Shown here one piece after another: positions 4,732 through 12,856 of a DNA stretch of 14,262 nt (its first letter is position 1; every line of letters starts with the position of its first letter). Origin of the DNA: Amoebophrya sp. AT5.2 (Eukaryota > Sar > Dinophyceae > Syndiniales > Amoebophryaceae); contig RXOD01005408.1 of the NCBI GenBank assembly GCA_005223375.1, positions 1 through 14,262 of the forward strand, written 5' to 3'. The position numbers were made by a program, and so were the translations under genes. Below the pieces are notes generated by a model. That model was given only the letters and a program-made list of their open reading frames with translations, ran no database searches and had not been told where the DNA came from.

Positions 4732-6981
4732 TTAGACGAGAACTTTGCTGGTAGATTTTTTCTTCAGGCCTCCTCGGGGAGTTACGGGCGGTGTGGCAGG
4801 CGGTGAAACCGCCTCTGACGCCCCCGCTTTATTCGCCGCAGTGGGTGACTTCGACGGCTTCTTCGTAGCGCCCTTCATCTTGCCGACGTCTGTCGCTCCA
4901 CTTGCGGGCGGTGTCACGGGCGGTGAAACCGGTTCGTCCGCAGACGCCCCCACTTTATTCGCCGCAGTCGGTGACTTCGAAGGCTTCTTCGTAGCGGCTT
5001 TCTTCTTACCTGCATCTGTCCCTCCACTTGCGAGCGGGGAGTCCGACGGTAAAACCGCCTCAGGCGCAGAGGCCCTCGCTTTCGTCGCAGTGGCTGACAC
5101 AATCTTCTTCGTAGCCTTCTTCTTGCTTGCGGTTGCGTCCGTCCCCCCGCGGGGAGTTGCGGGACCGGGAGAGTCGGACGCTAAAGCCGCCTCAGAGCCA
5201 ACTTCCTTCTTGGCACTTGCAGTCGCACTTCCGCTTTTCGGTGACTGAGAAGACGTTTTCTTGCTAGGCTTCTTCTTGCCGCTGTGAAGTGCCGCTCCGC
5301 GGGGAGTCGAGGCCGGGGACTCGGACGGAAGAGCCGCCTCGGAGCCAGACAAGGACGCCCCGCGCGCGGCCGCCGCTTCCCGAGAAACCTCCGCCGAACT
5401 GGTCCCGAGAAACGAGCGGCGGCCAGCAGTCGATGTCGATTCGACATTGCCAGCCAAGTGAGTTGAGGACATCCTCGCACTGCTACTTTTGTCTGTGGCA
5501 CCACTAGGATTTGATTTAGAAGAAGCTTCTCCACCCGCAGCTGCACTTCCACTTCTACTTGCTCCGGTCTGTCGCGCCGCGCTGTTCCTGTCGCCGAAGG
5601 TTGCCTGGCTCGACAGCTGTTTCTCGGAAAAGCGGGGAGACTGTTCCGCGGACCGCGGGGAAGACCGCGGGGACTGTTGGGACGACTTGGGGTGGCTTGC
5701 GGGAAATTCCCAGGAGTAGGGGTCTTTGATCTCCCCCTGCACGACAACGACTTCCCCCTGCGACTCGACGATCATATCTTCCCGATCGGACACGCCCTCG
5801 TCCCCTGAGTAGTGATCGTCGTCGGGTCCTCCGTAGATGTCGTTTTCTCTCCGAGCTCGAGGACCACCTCCACACGCCAGACACACCACCACCACAGACA
5901 GCGCCGCCAGGACCACCACCGCACACACACAGATGATCACAATGAGCACCACGTGGTTCCCGTACACCCGCCGGCACGTGATCGTGTCCTCCGCGTCGCC
6001 CAGTGGGAACGGCCACTTCTCGTAGCCCACGAAGAACGACAGACACCAAGATTCCTGCTCCGAGAAGGATGCAGACCCCTCAGAAGTCATTGCGCTTATA
6101 CCCTTCTGCTTCCGTTGGACCGAGAACCCCCCGCAGAGATAATGGGAGTTGGCGAACATCTCCTCCTGGCTTTGGCAGGTCGCCTTACAGGTCTGTGCCT
6201 GACGGGACCCGTTCAGGTCCTCCGCGATTCGCACCTTGGTGGCGGGGATTTTGTACTGGAACCCTTCCTGGTTCAGCGTGTACAGGAAAAGCTGCTCGGA
6301 GTCGAACTCGAGGCTGCCGTCGTCTACTTCCTGCTCCCGCGGAAGATCCAGATCCCCTGGCTCATTCCCCCGAAAATGGTCGCCGAAGTGGTCGAACAAC
6401 CGGTGGGGGTCGAAGCCACGGGGCGGGTGAAGAAGGGGGGGAGGTTGGACCTCGTGAAACTCCGTGCTGTCCATCACCAGATTTTTGGAACCGATGCTCC
6501 CCACCGCCTCGAAATCCCCAGTGCCTTCGGGGTCGCAGTGCTGGTGGCTTCTCGAGGGCCCGTCTGATCTCTGCCGCGATGCTCCAGCCATCGTCTGACC
6601 CTCCTGCACCTCACTCTCCCCCGCGCGCTGACTCTTTTGCAGCAAGACCGATGTCGTCGCTCTAATATGATCTGTGCCAGACTCTGAGTTTGACGACGTC
6701 GCGGTCGTCTCAGGCAGCATGATGCTGTGGCTCACGTCGACGCCCGAAAGCACGGAGGCTGATGCGAGCACGGATTCTCGCCGTCCTCTGCGGGACGGTA
6801 CGGGCAATGACTCCTCTGCCGCGAAGACCGTTTTTCCGGAAACCTCAAAGTCCCCCGCCGCGGAGATCGCGGGAGGTGGCGGCACATCGCCATCTTCTGC
6901 GACGGGAACTGGAACGCCCGATGCGTAACAATTTCCGCACCCGGAAACTGAGAGACTGAAGAGGACTCGGTAATTGTGCAT
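4732..6981 (-). CDS. M2: putative single-pass membrane protein with Cys ectodomain and Lys/Ser/Pro repeat tail
   Basis: Single exon, about 749 aa from the ATG at 6981. The open frame extends further 5' to 7038 but only with a TTG. The N-terminus (MHNYRVLFSLSVSGCGNCYA) is a weak signal peptide, so an upstream exon is possible. The ectodomain is Ser/Pro-rich and acidic, then has a Cys cluster at about residues 264-340: TCKATC, YLCGGF, SWCLSFFVGY, and a last Cys (TITCRR) just before the TM. This C-x3-C...C-x2-F...C-x-[SF]-F layout matches M1 and recalls PAN/Apple modules. The TM is at about 344-368 (VVLIVIICVCAVVVLAALSV), followed by CLACGGGPRARR, a positive-inside stop-transfer. The cytoplasmic side is acidic (DDDHYSGDEG), then Ser-rich, then a Lys/Ser-Pro repeat region. 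It is likely a surface protein with a phosphorylatable tail. Being adjacent and co-oriented, M1 and M2 look like diverged tandem paralogues. Confidence 0.72.
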   Translation of the reverse strand: MHNYRVLFSLSVSGCGNCYASGVPVPVAEDGDVPPPPAISAAGDFEVSGKTVFAAEESLPVPSRRGRRESVLASASVLSGVDVSHSIMLPETTATSSNSESGTDHIRATTSVLLQKSQRAGESEVQEGQTMAGASRQRSDGPSRSHQHCDPEGTGDFEAVGSIGSKNLVMDSTEFHEVQPPPLLHPPRGFDPHRLFDHFGDHFRGNEPGDLDLPREQEVDDGSLEFDSEQLFLYTLNQEGFQYKIPATKVRIAEDLNGSRQAQTCKATCQSQEEMFANSHYLCGGFSVQRKQKGISAMTSEGSASFSEQESWCLSFFVGYEKWPFPLGDAEDTITCRRVYGNHVVLIVIICVCAVVVLAALSVVVVCLACGGGPRARRENDIYGGPDDDHYSGDEGVSDREDMIVESQGEVVVVQGEIKDPYSWEFPASHPKSSQQSPRSSPRSAEQSPRFSEKQLSSQATFGDRNSAARQTGASRSGSAAAGGEASSKSNPSGATDKSSSARMSSTHLAGNVESTSTAGRRSFLGTSSAEVSREAAAARGASLSGSEAALPSESPASTPRGAALHSGKKKPSKKTSSQSPKSGSATASAKKEVGSEAALASDSPGPATPRGGTDATASKKKATKKIVSATATKARASAPEAVLPSDSPLASGGTDAGKKKAATKKPSKSPTAANKVGASADEPVSPPVTPPASGATDVGKMKGATKKPSKSPTAANKAGASEAVSPPATPPVTPRGGLKKKSTSKVLV
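4795..5165 (-). repeat. coding tandem repeat in the M2 tail, about 42 codons per unit
   Basis: Matching points recur at 4832, 4958 and 5081 (the ttcg[ct]cgca core), periods 126 and 123 bp, so the repeat keeps frame. Units encode KKPSKSPTAANK, then an Ala/Glu stretch, then SPPxTPP. The two distal units (nearest the stop) are nearly identical in DNA, the third is more diverged, and older traces (SGKKKPSKK, SESPASTPR) extend to about 5340. The Lys-rich plus S/T-P composition resembles histone H1-like or heavily phosphorylated tails. Confidence 0.85.
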
Positions 6982-7737
6982 CCTATCAATTCCGAGGAGG
7001 ACCAATCGATGAAACACGACGAGAGATTCCGCCGTCAATGAAAGGCAGTGAGTATGTACTGGGTTCTACAGCAATATCAGAAGAGACTGGTACTACAGTA
7101 ATATCGGTTTTGCACCTGTATGATACGGGGGCCGAAAGGTCGGGTGGGAGAGATAAAAGTGCGTCTACTTTGCTGGGGCGTGTGCTCTTCTCGCCGCGCT
7201 GGAAAATTATACAGCTATGGGGCGCTTGCATGAAGTAGCGATGGAGCCTTCGAATCAAAATACTGCTCGGGATGCCGAGGAACGACGACGAAAATAAACG
7301 AACCATGCACGGTCGGAAACGACACCGATCAGACGGAAACGGGGTGTAACACGGATTTTTCAGGATAAGACCACGTCTTTCAGGAAGCAATCACGACCGC
7401 ACGATACAACGACACAAAGTTAGGCACCACGCGCGAGTCTGTGAGACGACTTACGAATACGAAAGGAATAGGCAAACCGATGGCGATGCTAGTACTATAA
7501 CGACGCATTTGATCTTAGGTGTCGACTCGATCGTCGGACAGCGGAGCAGGAAAAAGTTTGACTCCTGAGCACTTTCTTGCTTATCTCGGCACAGCGTAGT
7601 TTTTCTGCGGCATCTTCTTGATGCAAATTCTAGCTTCCAGTCGACCTCGATTGTCGCATATGAATGATCGAACTCACAATCAAATCGATCATCGAATCGA
7701 GCTAGCTGAAAATGAAAATAAAAATATAAGGAAGCCG
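6982..7737. other. intergenic: 3' flank of the Ser-rich gene and 5' flank of M2
   Basis: No exon can be supported. A minus-strand frame at 6986-7390 lacks recognisable features, although an upstream signal-peptide exon for M2 could hide here. There is a 19-base imperfect direct repeat at 7062-7080 and 7089-7107 (GGT[TA]CTACAG[CT]AATATC core) just upstream of the M2 start. Confidence 0.5.
7062..7107. repeat. imperfect 19-base direct repeat upstream of M2
   Basis: Two copies 27 bp apart share GGTnCTACAGnAATATC. They lie 80-130 bp upstream of the proposed M2 ATG, where a promoter element could sit. Only the repetition is seen; any regulatory role is inference. Confidence 0.5.
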
Positions 7738-9323
7738 CTACTTGTTTTTGTGCTCCAGGCGTATCGCCGCTCGCAGCCTTTCCTCCTGCACGCGAGACCG
7801 GACTTCGTCCCTGAGTTGTGTGCGCATGTCCCGCTTGTCACCCACATCTTCCACGCGCAAGTCGTCCAGCTCTGGATCGCCCTGCGGCGCGCCCCCAGCA
7901 CTGGGAATCACCCCCGGCATCTCGAAGATGCTGTCTTTCGTTAGTTTTGGCATGTTATGGAGGTCGTAGGACCAGCGATGGTAAGTCAGAGGCAACACTG
8001 ATGGTAAGTGAAAACCTATGGGGAGCCTCTTCGGGGAGGTGTCATTTGGCTATGAATCCTGAGAAGAGGTTCACAGTGGGCGTAGCGAGGCGGCTTCCCG
8101 CCGGATGATCCGCAGCAGGCCTTGTACCTCTGCAGCCTATACCTACAGCTGACAATACTAGATCGCCACTCCGGGCCCCCTCTTACTTTTAGTTCTATTC
8201 CGCTTTCAGGCCCTAGGTACTACAACCACGGCTTTTCGCTACGAGGACTACCACTTTCCTATACCTCCCAATACAATTGCTTAGCCTCTTCAGTCCCTTT
8301 CGAATGACTACGACAATGGGGCATCTCTTTTATCCCATACCCCATCGCGCCGGGTATGAATTTTCAGAGCGCCTTCAAAATCCGCACTCGCCATCGCTAA
8401 GGGCATTCGCCATCGCCAACGCACTACTAGTGGCTACTTGGCGCTAGTTTCGAGCGCGAGCCATCATCTTCTCACTAGCACTATTAGATTTAAGACCAGT
8501 TCGTTGGGCGCTTTATCGATCGCATCGCTGGTCTCGCATCCTACATGTTCAGCGACACTTCCACGTCCGCCAGCGTGACCACTCTCGGAAGTTCTCCGCG
8601 CGCGTTTCTGGCCGCCATCTCTTCCCGGAACTTCTCCGCGAGCGTCAGGAAGTTGCTTGCGGACGAGGAGGAGGACGATGACGACGTCTGGCCATTGGCC
8701 GATTTGGGATTTGGATTTGCCGCGCCTTGCGCCTGCTGCTCTCCGCCGGTGGCCGGAGGAGGTGGAGCTTCAGCCGCAGCTCTCTTGCCGAATACCGGAA
8801 CGGCGAACCGCGGCGCGGTCTTCTGACTCTCCTTGGCGGACAATTTGCGCATCTTTTTGGCCTCCTCCTCGGAGATTAATGAGTCCGGGTCGTGCCCCGC
8901 CAGCCTGGACCGCTTCGGAAGCCTCCCCAGCGGGCAGAGTGCCTTCTCCTTGTCCCATTTCTGCCTCTGCTCCTCGAGCATCCGCGCCGCGAATTTGGAG
9001 CTGCTGCTCGAGGAGGGCGCGCCGGCCCCTGGTGTGGCTGTGGACGAGGAGCCGCTACTTCCATCTGCATTCGAATTGGCTGCATCTGTTCCTTTTGTAG
9101 GACCACCAGAAGCGTCCGCCCGCGAACTGGATGAGCCCGCTCCGGCGTCGGAAGCCGCGTTCGCGTTCGAACCGAGCCATTCGAGCTGCTGTTCCTTGCT
9201 GAATTTGTTCCACTCGTCCCGACACGTCTGCTCCGGTTCCGGATCTGCTGCTTCCTTCAATTGCGGGAGCCGAATGCCAAAAAACTTCGTCTTCGCGGCC
9301 AGAAGCCGCTTGATCATGTTCAT
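7738..9323 (-). CDS. unrecognised Ser-rich, charged protein (two exons, 330 aa)
   Basis: Exons are 9323-8544 and 7950-7738, joined across an AACATG direct repeat to give ...VEVSLNM|PKLTKDSIF in frame. The ATG at 9323 has an in-frame TAG three codons upstream. No family is recognised. The N-terminus (MNMIKRLLAAKTKFFGIR) is basic and amphipathic with no acidic residue, so a mitochondrial presequence is possible. Then come CRDEWNKFSKEQQLEWLG, Ser/Gly/Ala-rich low complexity (about 55-110), a charged helical part (KFAARMLEEQRQKWDKEK), a Pro/Ala and poly-Ser stretch, a conserved-looking NFLTLAEKFREEM, and a charged C-terminal helix (DKRDMRTQLRDEVRSRVQ). No TM or zinc-binding pattern is seen. Low-complexity linkers between short charged motifs suggest a scaffold or RNA/protein-binding factor, but that is a guess. 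Confidence 0.72.
7951..8543 (-). mobile_element. inverted-repeat (introner-like) intron in the Ser-rich gene, 593 bp
   Basis: Direct repeat AACATG flanks it (CATGTT on the plus strand at 8544-8549 and 7951-7956). Inside lie terminal inverted repeats with an 11-base perfect core, GACCAGCGATG (7970-7980) and CATCGCTGGTC (8523-8533), set 10 and 13 bases in from the direct repeats, with further partial matches outward (TAGGATGCGA against ATGGAGGTCGTAG). Excision leaving one AACATG restores the frame; unspliced, a TAG follows the repeat at once. No cut point within the repeat gives GT-AG ends. Confidence 0.85.
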
Positions 9324-9991: not shown

Positions 9992-12856
9992 CTACACCTG
10001 TTGCCAGAACGGGTCGTCCCGCAGCGCAGCGTCCCCATTACCGCCTTCCACCCGGTCATCTTCACCCTCCACTGCTCGATTTCCGTCCAGCAAGCTCCTG
10101 CCTCGCTTCGCGAACAGAATCGTTTTGCGCATGCGCTCCTGCAACGTGACGCGGTCAGGACGGAGGAACTCCCGAGTCGTCTTGCCCTGCAGCACCAGCA
10201 GGCAGTGGCAGAAGCAAAACCCGACCACCAGCAGTGCCAGAATCACCGTCGGCGCGCCGACGAGGATCGCAAGAATGACGACCGCAGTTTTTGAGAGCTT
10301 CTCATGTGCACTCTTGTCGGGGGCTGCTGCTGTGCGTATGGGTACGGGTACGCCTTTGCCTGCGACGCCACCACTAAGACCGACTCCCACCACCCATGCT
10401 TCCTGACTCTCGCCAGTTGCTCCTCCCTGACTTCCGGCCACGTCCTGCGCCGCAGCTCCTGCACCCACCACTCCCCCAAACATAGCATTGCCAGCAGCAA
10501 CACCACCCCCCGCCCACACAAACATGCCCAGTACCACACATACGCCCAGGCAGCTCAGGCTCGCCAGAAACAGCCAGAAAAAAGTATAGTTCCGCAAGCC
10601 GATGCAGGTGCCGACGAAGGGGCAGTGATGGTCTAGCCTCCGGACGCACTGGCCGCTATGGAGATTTTTTCTACTTCAATTCGCGGACTGAGAAACTCAA
10701 AGTATCACGCAGCAGATCGGCATACTCTGCTTGCATTGGGAGCCATGCAACCCGTAGGCACCGGGAAGGCGTCCAAGGACCGGACGAGACCTTTCCCGGA
10801 CAATCTCAGACTCTGACTCCCACTCGACCAGGCAGCTCCCGAGCGAACCCATCCCCGACTACAATCTGTCACTGTCTGCCTCTGCAACTGCACCCCGAGA
10901 GGCCTCCTGCGATGAAGGATCTTGTTCCCTCCCCCGGCTATAGAATGATTTGAATCAAGATTAAGATAAAGTCAACAGTGAACGTGAAGTAGTGAATGTA
11001 TAAATCGGCATAGCCGCAATCCCCGCAGTGGTACGCGCCGGGCGGACGAATGATCTCGCACACGCGGCAGATCCGGAATCCCACATCGGCCTGCTTCGCG
11101 CGTAGCTCCAGCACGGGGGGACAGATGATCCTCTCCCAGATCTTATCCTCCTCCTCCTCCTCGTTCTCGACTGGTGTTGCGCGCAGTGAAGATGTCGTAG
11201 CTATGTTTCCTCGGTATGCAGAGGCAGCTATTGTCCCTGCCCGTCCCGGTTTTTTATGGAGAGAGATGACGCAAGAGACCCCGAGCAGAATCCTTCCCGC
11301 GCACTACGCTGTGCTGTCCCAAAGTGAATGCGCTGCGGACCCTAGGTGGAAAAAAACGCGAAATACTTATGTCCCGAGTTCCTTGAAATTCAGCGTGCGG
11401 GGACCTCGGCAGCACTAGAAAGCATCGGTCCCTCTTTTCGGAATGGGTTCTAAATGGTCGAAAAACCTGCGTCGGGAGCTGGGTATCGGTGACTCCGATC
11501 GCAAGGCCATAGACTTCATCACGCGACTTCTTCATCCTTTTTGCGGGAACATCGGGACAAGCTTCTCGGTTGCATACTCGGCTATAGGTCTGTGTTATTC
11601 GCAGTCGCTGCACCACGCGGTTTTCGTCCCTTTCTCCCTCTGGCAGCTGACAGGCCTGTGCTCCCTCTCTGTCTATCGTCCGCTCACTGGAGGATGCAGC
11701 CGTAGTCGTGCTGCTGATGGACATGCCGCGGTCCCGTCCTCCTCCCTCTGATGACTGATTGGTATTGCTATTGCTTTTGTTTTTGCTGCCGTTCCTGTTC
11801 TCGGTGACTACTTCGGCCGGCGGACGGCCTTCCGGAACGAACCATCGCACCACTGTCGGCAGCGGCGATGTTGTAACTGGTTGTTGAAGTCCCTCGTCGT
11901 GAAATCCAAGTTCCGCCAGCACCTCCTGCTCCAGCCCGGCGCACCTCTCCAGTACGCGCCTGGGCGGTAGAATGCCCGGATCCGTGCAGGCGGTGAGGGC
12001 GAGGAGCACAAAGGTCGTCACCAGCAGAACCGCAACGCACAGTTAGAGCCGCTCAAAAAAAACTCAATTTGGTCTGAGTTAAGGACCGGCTTCCGCTGGT
12101 CAGACTCAGAGGCAGCCTTAATATCACTTGTCGATGTCCGCCGATACCCCTTCGAAGGAGCCAGAGCCTTCGACCCTACAGAAAGTAGAGAACCCCAAGA
12201 CGGCGACCAAGGGCGACACTTCCAGAGCACGCCATCGGTCTACAGATCGACGGGTCGCAGTCTGCAGCACATCTCAATGGTGGCTCCGTCACGAACCCCC
12301 CTAGGAAACCCCTTCGAAGGGGTGCTACGTGTCCCATATCCGTCACAACCCGTTGTCCTTTTAAGTTTTTTTTTTTGAAGGCCTAACACAAAGGGAGGAA
12401 CCAGAGACCGTCGGAGGAGCGCCACAAGTCCGGGCCGCACACGGAGAGGAATGCTACCGACGAGAGGAAGATCCATCCAGAAGCGCAGACCTTGTACGGG
12501 AGGTCCTCTTCTGGCCCGGTGATGCAGGCGCCGTTACAGAAAAACCGCGAGCGGGGCCCCAGTGTGTGCCATACGTCTTTCAGCCGGAGAGTTGATGTGG
12601 GACGACGAGGAGAGGGCGACGATGATGATGAAGATGACGATGGGGGTGATGATCGGGGTATGCGTTGTGTTCTCGGGTCGTGCGGCATATCGGAGGGATC
12701 GCCTTCCTGGCCTGCTTGGAGCTTTGCTTCGTACTCGCTCTTGCCATCCGGAGGCGGGCCGACTTGTACTCCTAAGTTCGAGATCGAGGTCGAGCCGGAG
12801 CCGGAGCCGCAGACATCTAGCAGCGGCCGTTCATGTCCGTGTGCCGCACCCGACAT
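9992..12856 (-). CDS. DHHC-type protein S-acyltransferase (palmitoyltransferase), four exons, 578 aa
   Basis: Transfers fatty acyl groups, usually palmitate, to protein cysteines at membranes. Exons: 12856-12387, 12037-11600, 11181-11013, 10651-9992 (1737 nt, in frame). Domains in order: [15 protein letters not shown] (before TM1, typical of the family); TM1 about 121-140; TM2 about 149-173; the TDPG motif at 175-178; the Cys-rich domain RICRVC (339-344), [11 protein letters not shown] (348-358), [12 protein letters not shown] (360-371), C375, RNY (379-381); TM3 about 381-407; TM4 about 480-512; TTRE (517-520), the family TTxE motif. All zinc ligands and the catalytic DHHC Cys (369) are present. 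The TDPG-to-zinc-finger linker, about 160 residues of Ser/Asn/Glu low complexity, is unusually long, as is the luminal TM3-TM4 loop. The ATG at 12856 is the first in-frame ATG after an upstream TAG. All three introns are of the inverted-repeat class. Confidence 0.93.
10652..11012 (-). mobile_element. inverted-repeat (introner-like) intron 3 of the DHHC gene, 361 bp
   Basis: Direct repeat GCGGC flanks it (GCCGC on plus at 11013-11017 and 10652-10656). The inverted repeats abut it: 5' GCTATGCCGATTT...CTACTTCA against the complement of the 3' end, GCTATGGAGATTT...CTACTTCA. The join gives [16 protein letters not shown], restoring the exact C-x2-C-x4-DHHC spacing. A GC-AG alternative (TAT|GCC...CAG|TGC) would give Tyr for Gln at the junction with the same spacing, but its donor context is poor. 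Confidence 0.85.
11182..11599 (-). mobile_element. inverted-repeat (introner-like) intron 2 of the DHHC gene, 418 bp
   Basis: Direct repeat ACTGCG flanks it (CGCAGT on plus at 11600-11605 and 11182-11187). The inverted repeats start 12-13 bases inside on both sides: 5' CTATAGCCGAGTATGCA then AGCTTGTCCC, against the complement of the 3' end, CTATGTTTCCTCGGTATGCA then AGCTATTGTCCC. The join gives [15 protein letters not shown], in frame with the exon carrying the first zinc ligands. The intron stays open in the upstream frame for about 115 codons (to 11254), so a naive ORF call would run into it. No GT-AG pair fits the repeat. Confidence 0.85.
12072..12112. repeat. hairpin-capable inverted repeat near the 3' end of DHHC intron 1
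   Basis: TCTGAGT pairs with ACTCAGA, with an inner GACC/GGTC pairing and a loop of about 10 bases. It lies just inside the A-rich 3' terminal repeat of the intron. Confidence 0.6.
12309..12322. repeat. 14-base perfect palindrome inside DHHC intron 1
   Basis: CCCCTTCGAAGGGG is self-complementary; its first 12 bases (CCCCTTCGAAGG) recur at 12147-12158 in the same intron. It could form a strong hairpin in the transcript. Confidence 0.85.

Follow-up and report, generated by a model that had tools for sequence, protein, structure and literature searches.

Probable introner elements from three multicopy families, flanked by 5-bp duplications, interrupt a DHHC palmitoyltransferase gene of Amoebophrya sp. 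AT5.2

Introduction

The closest described counterparts of the locus studied here are the introners of Amoebophrya strains A25 and A120, for which the available text of Farhat et al. (2021, PMC7789003) reports RNA-seq-supported, non-GT-AG introns with inverted repeats of 8-20 nt and with direct repeats that measure 3-5 nt and vary in position. The same text describes the introner families as strain-specific, argues against a general transposase, and gives end motifs consisting of TTA and two purines in A25, and of TAT, seven bases and at least three As in A120. According to the accessible portions of the respective papers, introns are mostly GT-AG in the genomes of Amoebophrya AT5 (PMC7789003) and of Amoebophrya ex K. 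veneficum (PMC12005148).

Related phenomena are found in other eukaryotes. The introners of Symbiodinium microadriaticum and others share with ours the signatures of DNA transposons and an origin in which insertion makes the intron, and those of S. microadriaticum have a target-site duplication (TSD) of 4 bp (Gozashti et al., 2022, PMC9860276, text in part). They bring splice sites along or obtain such sites from the duplication or the place of insertion, whereas GT-AG is possible at the random rate only in the present case. The nonconventional introns of euglenids (PMC4770533) and the noncanonical introns of diplonemids (PMC12621601) are similar in their variable borders and pairable ends, and the euglenid introns also in their frequent direct repeats and proposed MITE-like origin; however, these hosts are unrelated, and the available parts of the two papers report no fixed 5-bp duplication. 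A genome-scale departure from GT-AG is likewise described for tunicates, where it concerns 95% of introns and has been linked, in the text at our disposal, to U2AF and modified U1 and U6 (PMC13326754).

In the window analysed here, a stretch of 14,262 nt from Amoebophrya sp. AT5.2, a DHHC palmitoyltransferase gene is split by three insertions of about 350 nt. An earlier note on this DNA, made from the sequence alone, had likened their architecture to that of introner-like introns in Amoebophrya genomes, and the introns in the published account of A25 and A120 are indeed of this kind (Farhat et al., 2021, PMC7789003, seen in part). The likeness extends to non-GT-AG borders, terminal inverted repeats, short direct repeats at the joints, organization into families and location inside genes. 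The start of the A25 motif, which further includes a conserved final G, fits the start of our family 1, and the A120 motif fits the family 2 end TATGCAGAGGAAA, whereas family 3 has the TAT start but not the As of that motif. Unlike the A25 and A120 introners, with their 3-5 nt repeats at varying positions, the elements of all three families here have a 5-bp duplication at a fixed place, and unlike the strain-specific families of A25 and A120, both end types occur within one gene (motifs and repeats as given in the accessible text of PMC7789003).

Results

Gene structure and signal within the window

The DHHC gene lies on the minus strand, with its ATG at 12856 and its stop at 9992 (Table 1). 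The earlier note had claimed an intron-bearing DHHC gene, and both gene and domain are confirmed by the corrected joined protein, which matches Pfam PF01529 with an E of 9.7e-23 (residues 356-416, profile positions 6-66 of 133) and contains the DHHC motif; exon 4 matches the same family by itself. Its 1737-nt frame was also reproduced, as removal of the introns in their original placement leaves 1743 nt open from 12862, equal to 1737 nt from the ATG. The corrected coding sequence has 1788 nt, and is 15 residues longer than with the original intron 2. Two further long frames on the same strand (4732-7038 and 8541-9323; 768 and 260 aa) have no Pfam match at E 0.001, and a short minus-strand frame at 216-484 (RFLHQDAKTAHLGIAPAHIFV...) resembles a piece of a pseudokinase, with a Pfam Pkinase match (E 0.023) below the cut-off.

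Table 1. Features of the DHHC gene (positions in the window)
Feature	Position	Strand	Remarks
Exon 1	12387..12856	minus	open frame from ATG 12856; equals public protein P0001 from residue 1 to joint 1
Intron 1 duplication, upstream copy TTGTG	12387..12391	minus	matches CTGTG at 4/5
Intron 1 element, TTA-type family 1, 344 nt	12043..12386	minus	TTAGGCC...GGCTCTAA; multicopy core and end
Intron 1 duplication, downstream copy CTGTG	12038..12042	minus	
Exon 2	11577..12037	minus	joined straight to exon 1 in P0001
Intron 2 duplication, upstream copy CCGAG	11577..11581	minus	
Intron 2 element (corrected), TAT-type family 2, 362 nt	11215..11576	minus	TATGCAACC...CTCTGCATA; multicopy core and end
Intron 2 duplication, downstream copy CCGAG	11210..11214	minus	
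Exon 3, first zinc ligands	11013..11209	minus	
Intron 3 duplication, upstream copy GCGGC	11013..11017	minus	
Intron 3 element, TAT-type family 3, 356 nt	10657..11012	minus	TATGCCGATTT...AAATCTCCATA; multicopy end
Intron 3 duplication, downstream copy GCGGC	10652..10656	minus	
Exon 4, to stop	9992..10651	minus	PF01529, E 7.1e-16

The original position of intron 1 (12038-12386) was retained, but its proposed repeat TGTG gave way to a 5-nt duplication with one mismatch, and intron 3 stands as described, at 10652-11012 with the direct repeat GCGGC; its element starts with TATGCC and ends with TCCATA. Pairing of the terminal inverted repeats is imperfect and gapped in the window copies, where the first unbroken match between the two ends is 4 bases long in introns 1 and 3 and 6 bases long in intron 2; in complete copies of the families the repeats extend over about 20 nt.

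Taken by itself, the window gives a moderate introner signal. Seven candidates emerged when it was scanned blindly for matching ends next to exact 5-bp repeats; among them, intron 3 scores 8 and intron 2 scores 7, and three others reach 8-9. Six mononucleotide-shuffled windows yielded 0, 1, 1, 2, 2 and 2 candidates, with top scores also as high as 8, and it is the families in the genome that lift the signal beyond chance. One candidate scoring 9, above introns 3 and 2, is a stretch of 404 nt at 12439-12842 with an exact GCCGC repeat and ACACGGA ends; it is probably a chance match, since its removal deletes most of exon 1, which is kept in P0001. An ungapped terminal-repeat scan of the window missed all three introns, and Rfam found nothing in it at gathering scores.

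Element families and target-site duplications

The ends of introns 1, 2 and 3 belong to three different multicopy families. In the genome (50,716,278 bases in 2759 contigs, with the window as C1612), searches at up to three mismatches gave 57 matches for the one of two TTA-type ends of family 1 that was used as pattern, 118 for the TATGCA end of family 2 and 67 for the end of family 3, compared with 3, 0 and 1 for the reversed-pattern controls. The cores of introns 1 (12171-12323) and 2 (11368-11515) have DNA relatives at 34 and 24 other places, respectively. The relatives of intron 1 share this core of about 150 nt at 70-86% identity, a closer likeness than over the remainder of the window copy, in which a palindrome, CCCCTTCGAAGGGG, lies near the core. 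The whole of intron 3, used as a DNA query against the genome, retrieved itself only. The 67 matches of its end rule out a singleton, so that intron 3 combines an interior without detectable relative with an end that has many.

For families 1 and 2, we collected 40 complete copies from loci L001-L099 (at most 30 loci per search), defined by both ends with at most five mismatches at a distance of 80-900 bp. Five of 45 pairings were left out, four because of a right end with five mismatches (the second pairings at L043, L045 and L047 and the sole pairing at L053) and one, at L077, because of such a left end. An exact 5-bp repeat abuts both ends in 27 of the 40 copies, and at least four of five bases agree in 34, whereas shuffled pairings average 0.77 exact repeats per 40; in no case among the 27 does the repeat reach 6 bp. 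Family 3, represented by all 13 facing pairs among its 67 end matches, has the exact repeat in 8, against a shuffled mean of 0.57. The exact repeat is missing in 13/40 and 5/13 copies, respectively. Like MITEs, which are non-autonomous DNA transposons, the three families combine family-specific terminal inverted repeats with a target duplication of fixed length. Of all 53 complete copies, 35 have the exact 5-bp duplication, a count to which the window's own three elements do not contribute. The duplicated sequence varies between insertion sites. The earlier note had proposed a genome search for further terminal-repeat copies with short flanking duplications, and this is what that search returned.

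No facing like ends more than 508 bp apart were seen among the 100 of 118 family 2 matches listed and the 67 family 3 matches. Many of these listed ends are located close to a contig start, no more than a few hundred bases away (for example at positions 1-20 of C965, C1237, C1300 and C886). Contigs thus seem to be interrupted at the repeats, and the copy numbers are probably lower bounds. At two loci (L100 on contig C1528 and L101 on C1540), family 3 ends match well but no duplication is present (2/5 bases); these are possibly ends of two different elements, or the result of rearrangement.

Placement of intron 2

Intron 2 had originally been placed at 11182-11599 with ACTGCG as its repeat; according to our analysis the element is 11215-11576 and the duplication CCGAG. 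Its terminal repeat TATGCA...TGCATA is common to the high-copy family 2, and the perfect 5-nt CCGAG adjoins both ends. Relatives of the intron 2 core in which both ends are present carry the end TATGCAGAGGAAATTTGTCC or a variant of it, mostly adjoining a 5-bp repeat; the window copy has this end in degenerate form. In the original version, the TATGCA element would be nested within an older intron bounded by ACTGCG, and the reading frame, which is kept under both versions, would allow for this. However, in the complete copies of family 2 the repeat sits directly at the TATGCA end, exactly in 14 of 20 and with at least four of five bases in 18 of 20, just as CCGAG does in the window copy. A 6-bp repeat within 35 nt outside the duplications also surrounds 9 of 40 other copies, which makes ACTGCG unremarkable. 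We therefore consider the original placement very unlikely.

Insertion into coding sequence

To assess reading frames around the insertions, codon usage was modelled from eight DHHC loci in this genome, together with the window gene's exons 1 and 4; in leave-one-out trials the model assigned the correct frame and strand to 59 of 76 pieces of 150 nt. For 36 of the 40 copies, it preferred the joint at which the element and one repeat copy are removed as the frame-keeping one (binomial P about 1e-13 versus one third), compared with 821 of 2000 random intervals in the same loci, and four copies failed. The frame is also kept in 11 of the 13 copies with an imperfect repeat, which are presumably older. 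All 40 elements introduce a stop in the longest open frame over the joint. Frame continuity by itself is expected for any insertion into coding sequence; it is the intact frames despite an imperfect repeat, together with P0001, that favor removal from the mRNA. A six-frame open-reading test with a threshold of 150 nt was discarded as not discriminating (28/34 at the true joint versus 23-28/34 at shifts of 1-6 bases), since chance alone often produces long open frames here.

Four joined genes that could be recognized by eye among the longest joined frames were compared with Pfam. The best stretch crosses the joint in all of them, namely a kinase, a P-type ATPase, an AAA ATPase and an MBOAT protein; for the P-type ATPase the E of 6.5e-11 refers to the whole protein, no individual stretch passing alone. 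The kinase joint, LLAGVAY|LHAHTVIHRDLK, the one joint compared with named relatives, is gapless against the proteins from Amoebophrya sp. A25 and A120, which are the best named relatives of this kinase (72% and 74% identity in the alignment with a 173-residue piece). Neither strain is among the named matches of the DHHC protein.

Probable removal from the message

Over residues 1-310, across exons 1 and 2, the joined protein is matched without any difference by a public JGI protein of 417 aa (P0001) from a contig of 2690 bp. Intron 1 is absent from P0001 exactly at the predicted joint LPLC|VAVLL, and beyond residue 310 P0001 follows the translation of intron 2 through to a stop. Judged from its sequence, P0001 is most simply read as a transcript from which intron 1 has been spliced out and in which intron 2 remains, although its contig could be DNA of a strain without intron 1. 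Since both duplication copies encode Leu, P0001 agrees equally with either of them being kept.

Public protein searches found no protein with intron 2 or intron 3 removed. A search with exons 3 and 4 retrieved a 95% identical fragment, which begins downstream of joint 3 and is thus mute on it. Homologues with an uninterrupted reading were aligned as well. At joint 3, which lies within the zinc-binding motif, all three of them (P0011, P0012 and P0013) are gapless. Joint 1 is backed to within one residue by both homologues that cover it; next to this joint, P0012 and P0013 have one residue fewer than the joined protein.

Splice sites, folding and snRNAs

Because of the duplication, each intron can be read in six possible registers. 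None of them yields GT-AG in introns 1, 2 or 3, as the earlier note had held, and all three introns lack the GT and AG ends of the U2 type of spliceosomal introns. Among exact-repeat copies with a supported coding strand, GT-AG is possible in 1 of 25, the expectation for random duplications being 3.9% (L014 and L078, two of the 27, are left out, as their strand is unsupported by the frame test); counting both strands, 5 of 27 permit it. Within the limits of this small sample (n=25), there appears to be no selection for GT-AG at insertion sites, or among the survivors.

The minimum-energy fold pairs both ends in each of the three introns, with overall folding no better than that of dinucleotide shuffles (z of -1.03, 0.88 and 0.71). 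Searches of the genome for U1 snRNA found none at E up to 10, a threshold that let through matches below the cut-off in 9 of the 14 control genomes of bacteria and archaea; U2 and U5 snRNAs were not found either (controls without positives), and U6 was found twice. An absence of U1 would fit the published failure to find it, but as U2 and U5 were also not found, it is no evidence.

Discussion

We are confident that the three insertions are introner elements of the Amoebophrya type, that is, transposon-born, TSD-flanked and removed as introns without GT-AG. Introners of this kind would be short inverted-repeat transposons without a recognizable gene, resembling MITEs. We posit that such an element would enter coding sequence via a 5-bp staggered cut, that the 5-bp target would become duplicated upon insertion, and that the transcript would lose the element and one duplication copy as an intron, which would restore the pre-insertion sequence. 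At the level of sequence, support is given for the element ends, the 5-bp duplications, the insertion into coding sequence, the multicopy families and the absence of intron 1 from P0001. That this absence reflects RNA splicing, that a transposase not seen here moves the introners, and that the paired ends or another feature direct their removal instead of GT and AG, we infer. The transposon origin with TSDs had been proposed in the earlier note, and it gains from the genome-wide copies, the 5-bp duplications, which differ between sites, and P0001; only ACTGCG as the TSD of intron 2 had to be given up.

The architecture described above is that of MITEs in general, and the elements might be ordinary insertions that remain unspliced and inactivate the gene, as the truncation of the P0001 product inside intron 2 could suggest. 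However, intron 1 is precisely missing from P0001, the DHHC motifs and the frame are intact across three insertions, and coding frames are continuous for 36 of the 40 copies tested, among them 11 of the 13 whose repeat is imperfect, so that we regard an inactivated gene as very improbable. Canonical GT-AG introns that merely have unrelated repeats near their ends are conceivable insofar as about a third of the introns in A25 and A120 are GT-AG (PMC11453091, accessible text). This explanation we hold to be extremely unlikely, as no register of the three introns and only 1 of 25 genome copies offers GT-AG, and joint 1 in P0001 is the repeat-precise one.

The insertions could also be lost from the DNA during some part of the life cycle, in a manner like the excision of internal eliminated sequences, or be missing from some alleles, with P0001 derived from such DNA. 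Precise excision of the element and one repeat would yield the same sequence, and the P0001 contig may be DNA or RNA. Yet P0001 lacks intron 1 while it contains intron 2, and the introns of A25 and A120 are reported, in the available text, as RNA-seq supported (PMC7789003). We accordingly give this possibility little credence, and retain the reading of the insertions as introners removed from RNA.

The introner kind itself is already known from the two Amoebophrya strains A25 and A120. What appears to be new is the uniform 5-bp duplication, for which we found no report in Amoebophrya in open-licence full text, and the occurrence of A25-type and A120-type ends within one gene. The insertion signature is cleaner here than in the described A25 and A120 introners. 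One might tentatively imagine that a single transposase class with a 5-bp staggered cut moves the TTA-end and TAT-end families alike, and that splicing recognizes the ends or the duplication and not GT-AG, although we would rather doubt than expect this. If it were true, any insertion site would be tolerated and the pre-insertion message restored.

The insertion sites represent a natural experiment, in which splicing that depends on GT-AG should enrich the duplications for GT-AG; on the coding strand no such enrichment is seen (1/25). The uniform 5-bp duplication across three families bears on the published argument against a general transposase in Amoebophrya, and transposon-born introns that need no GT or AG would test how the splicing machinery locates intron ends.
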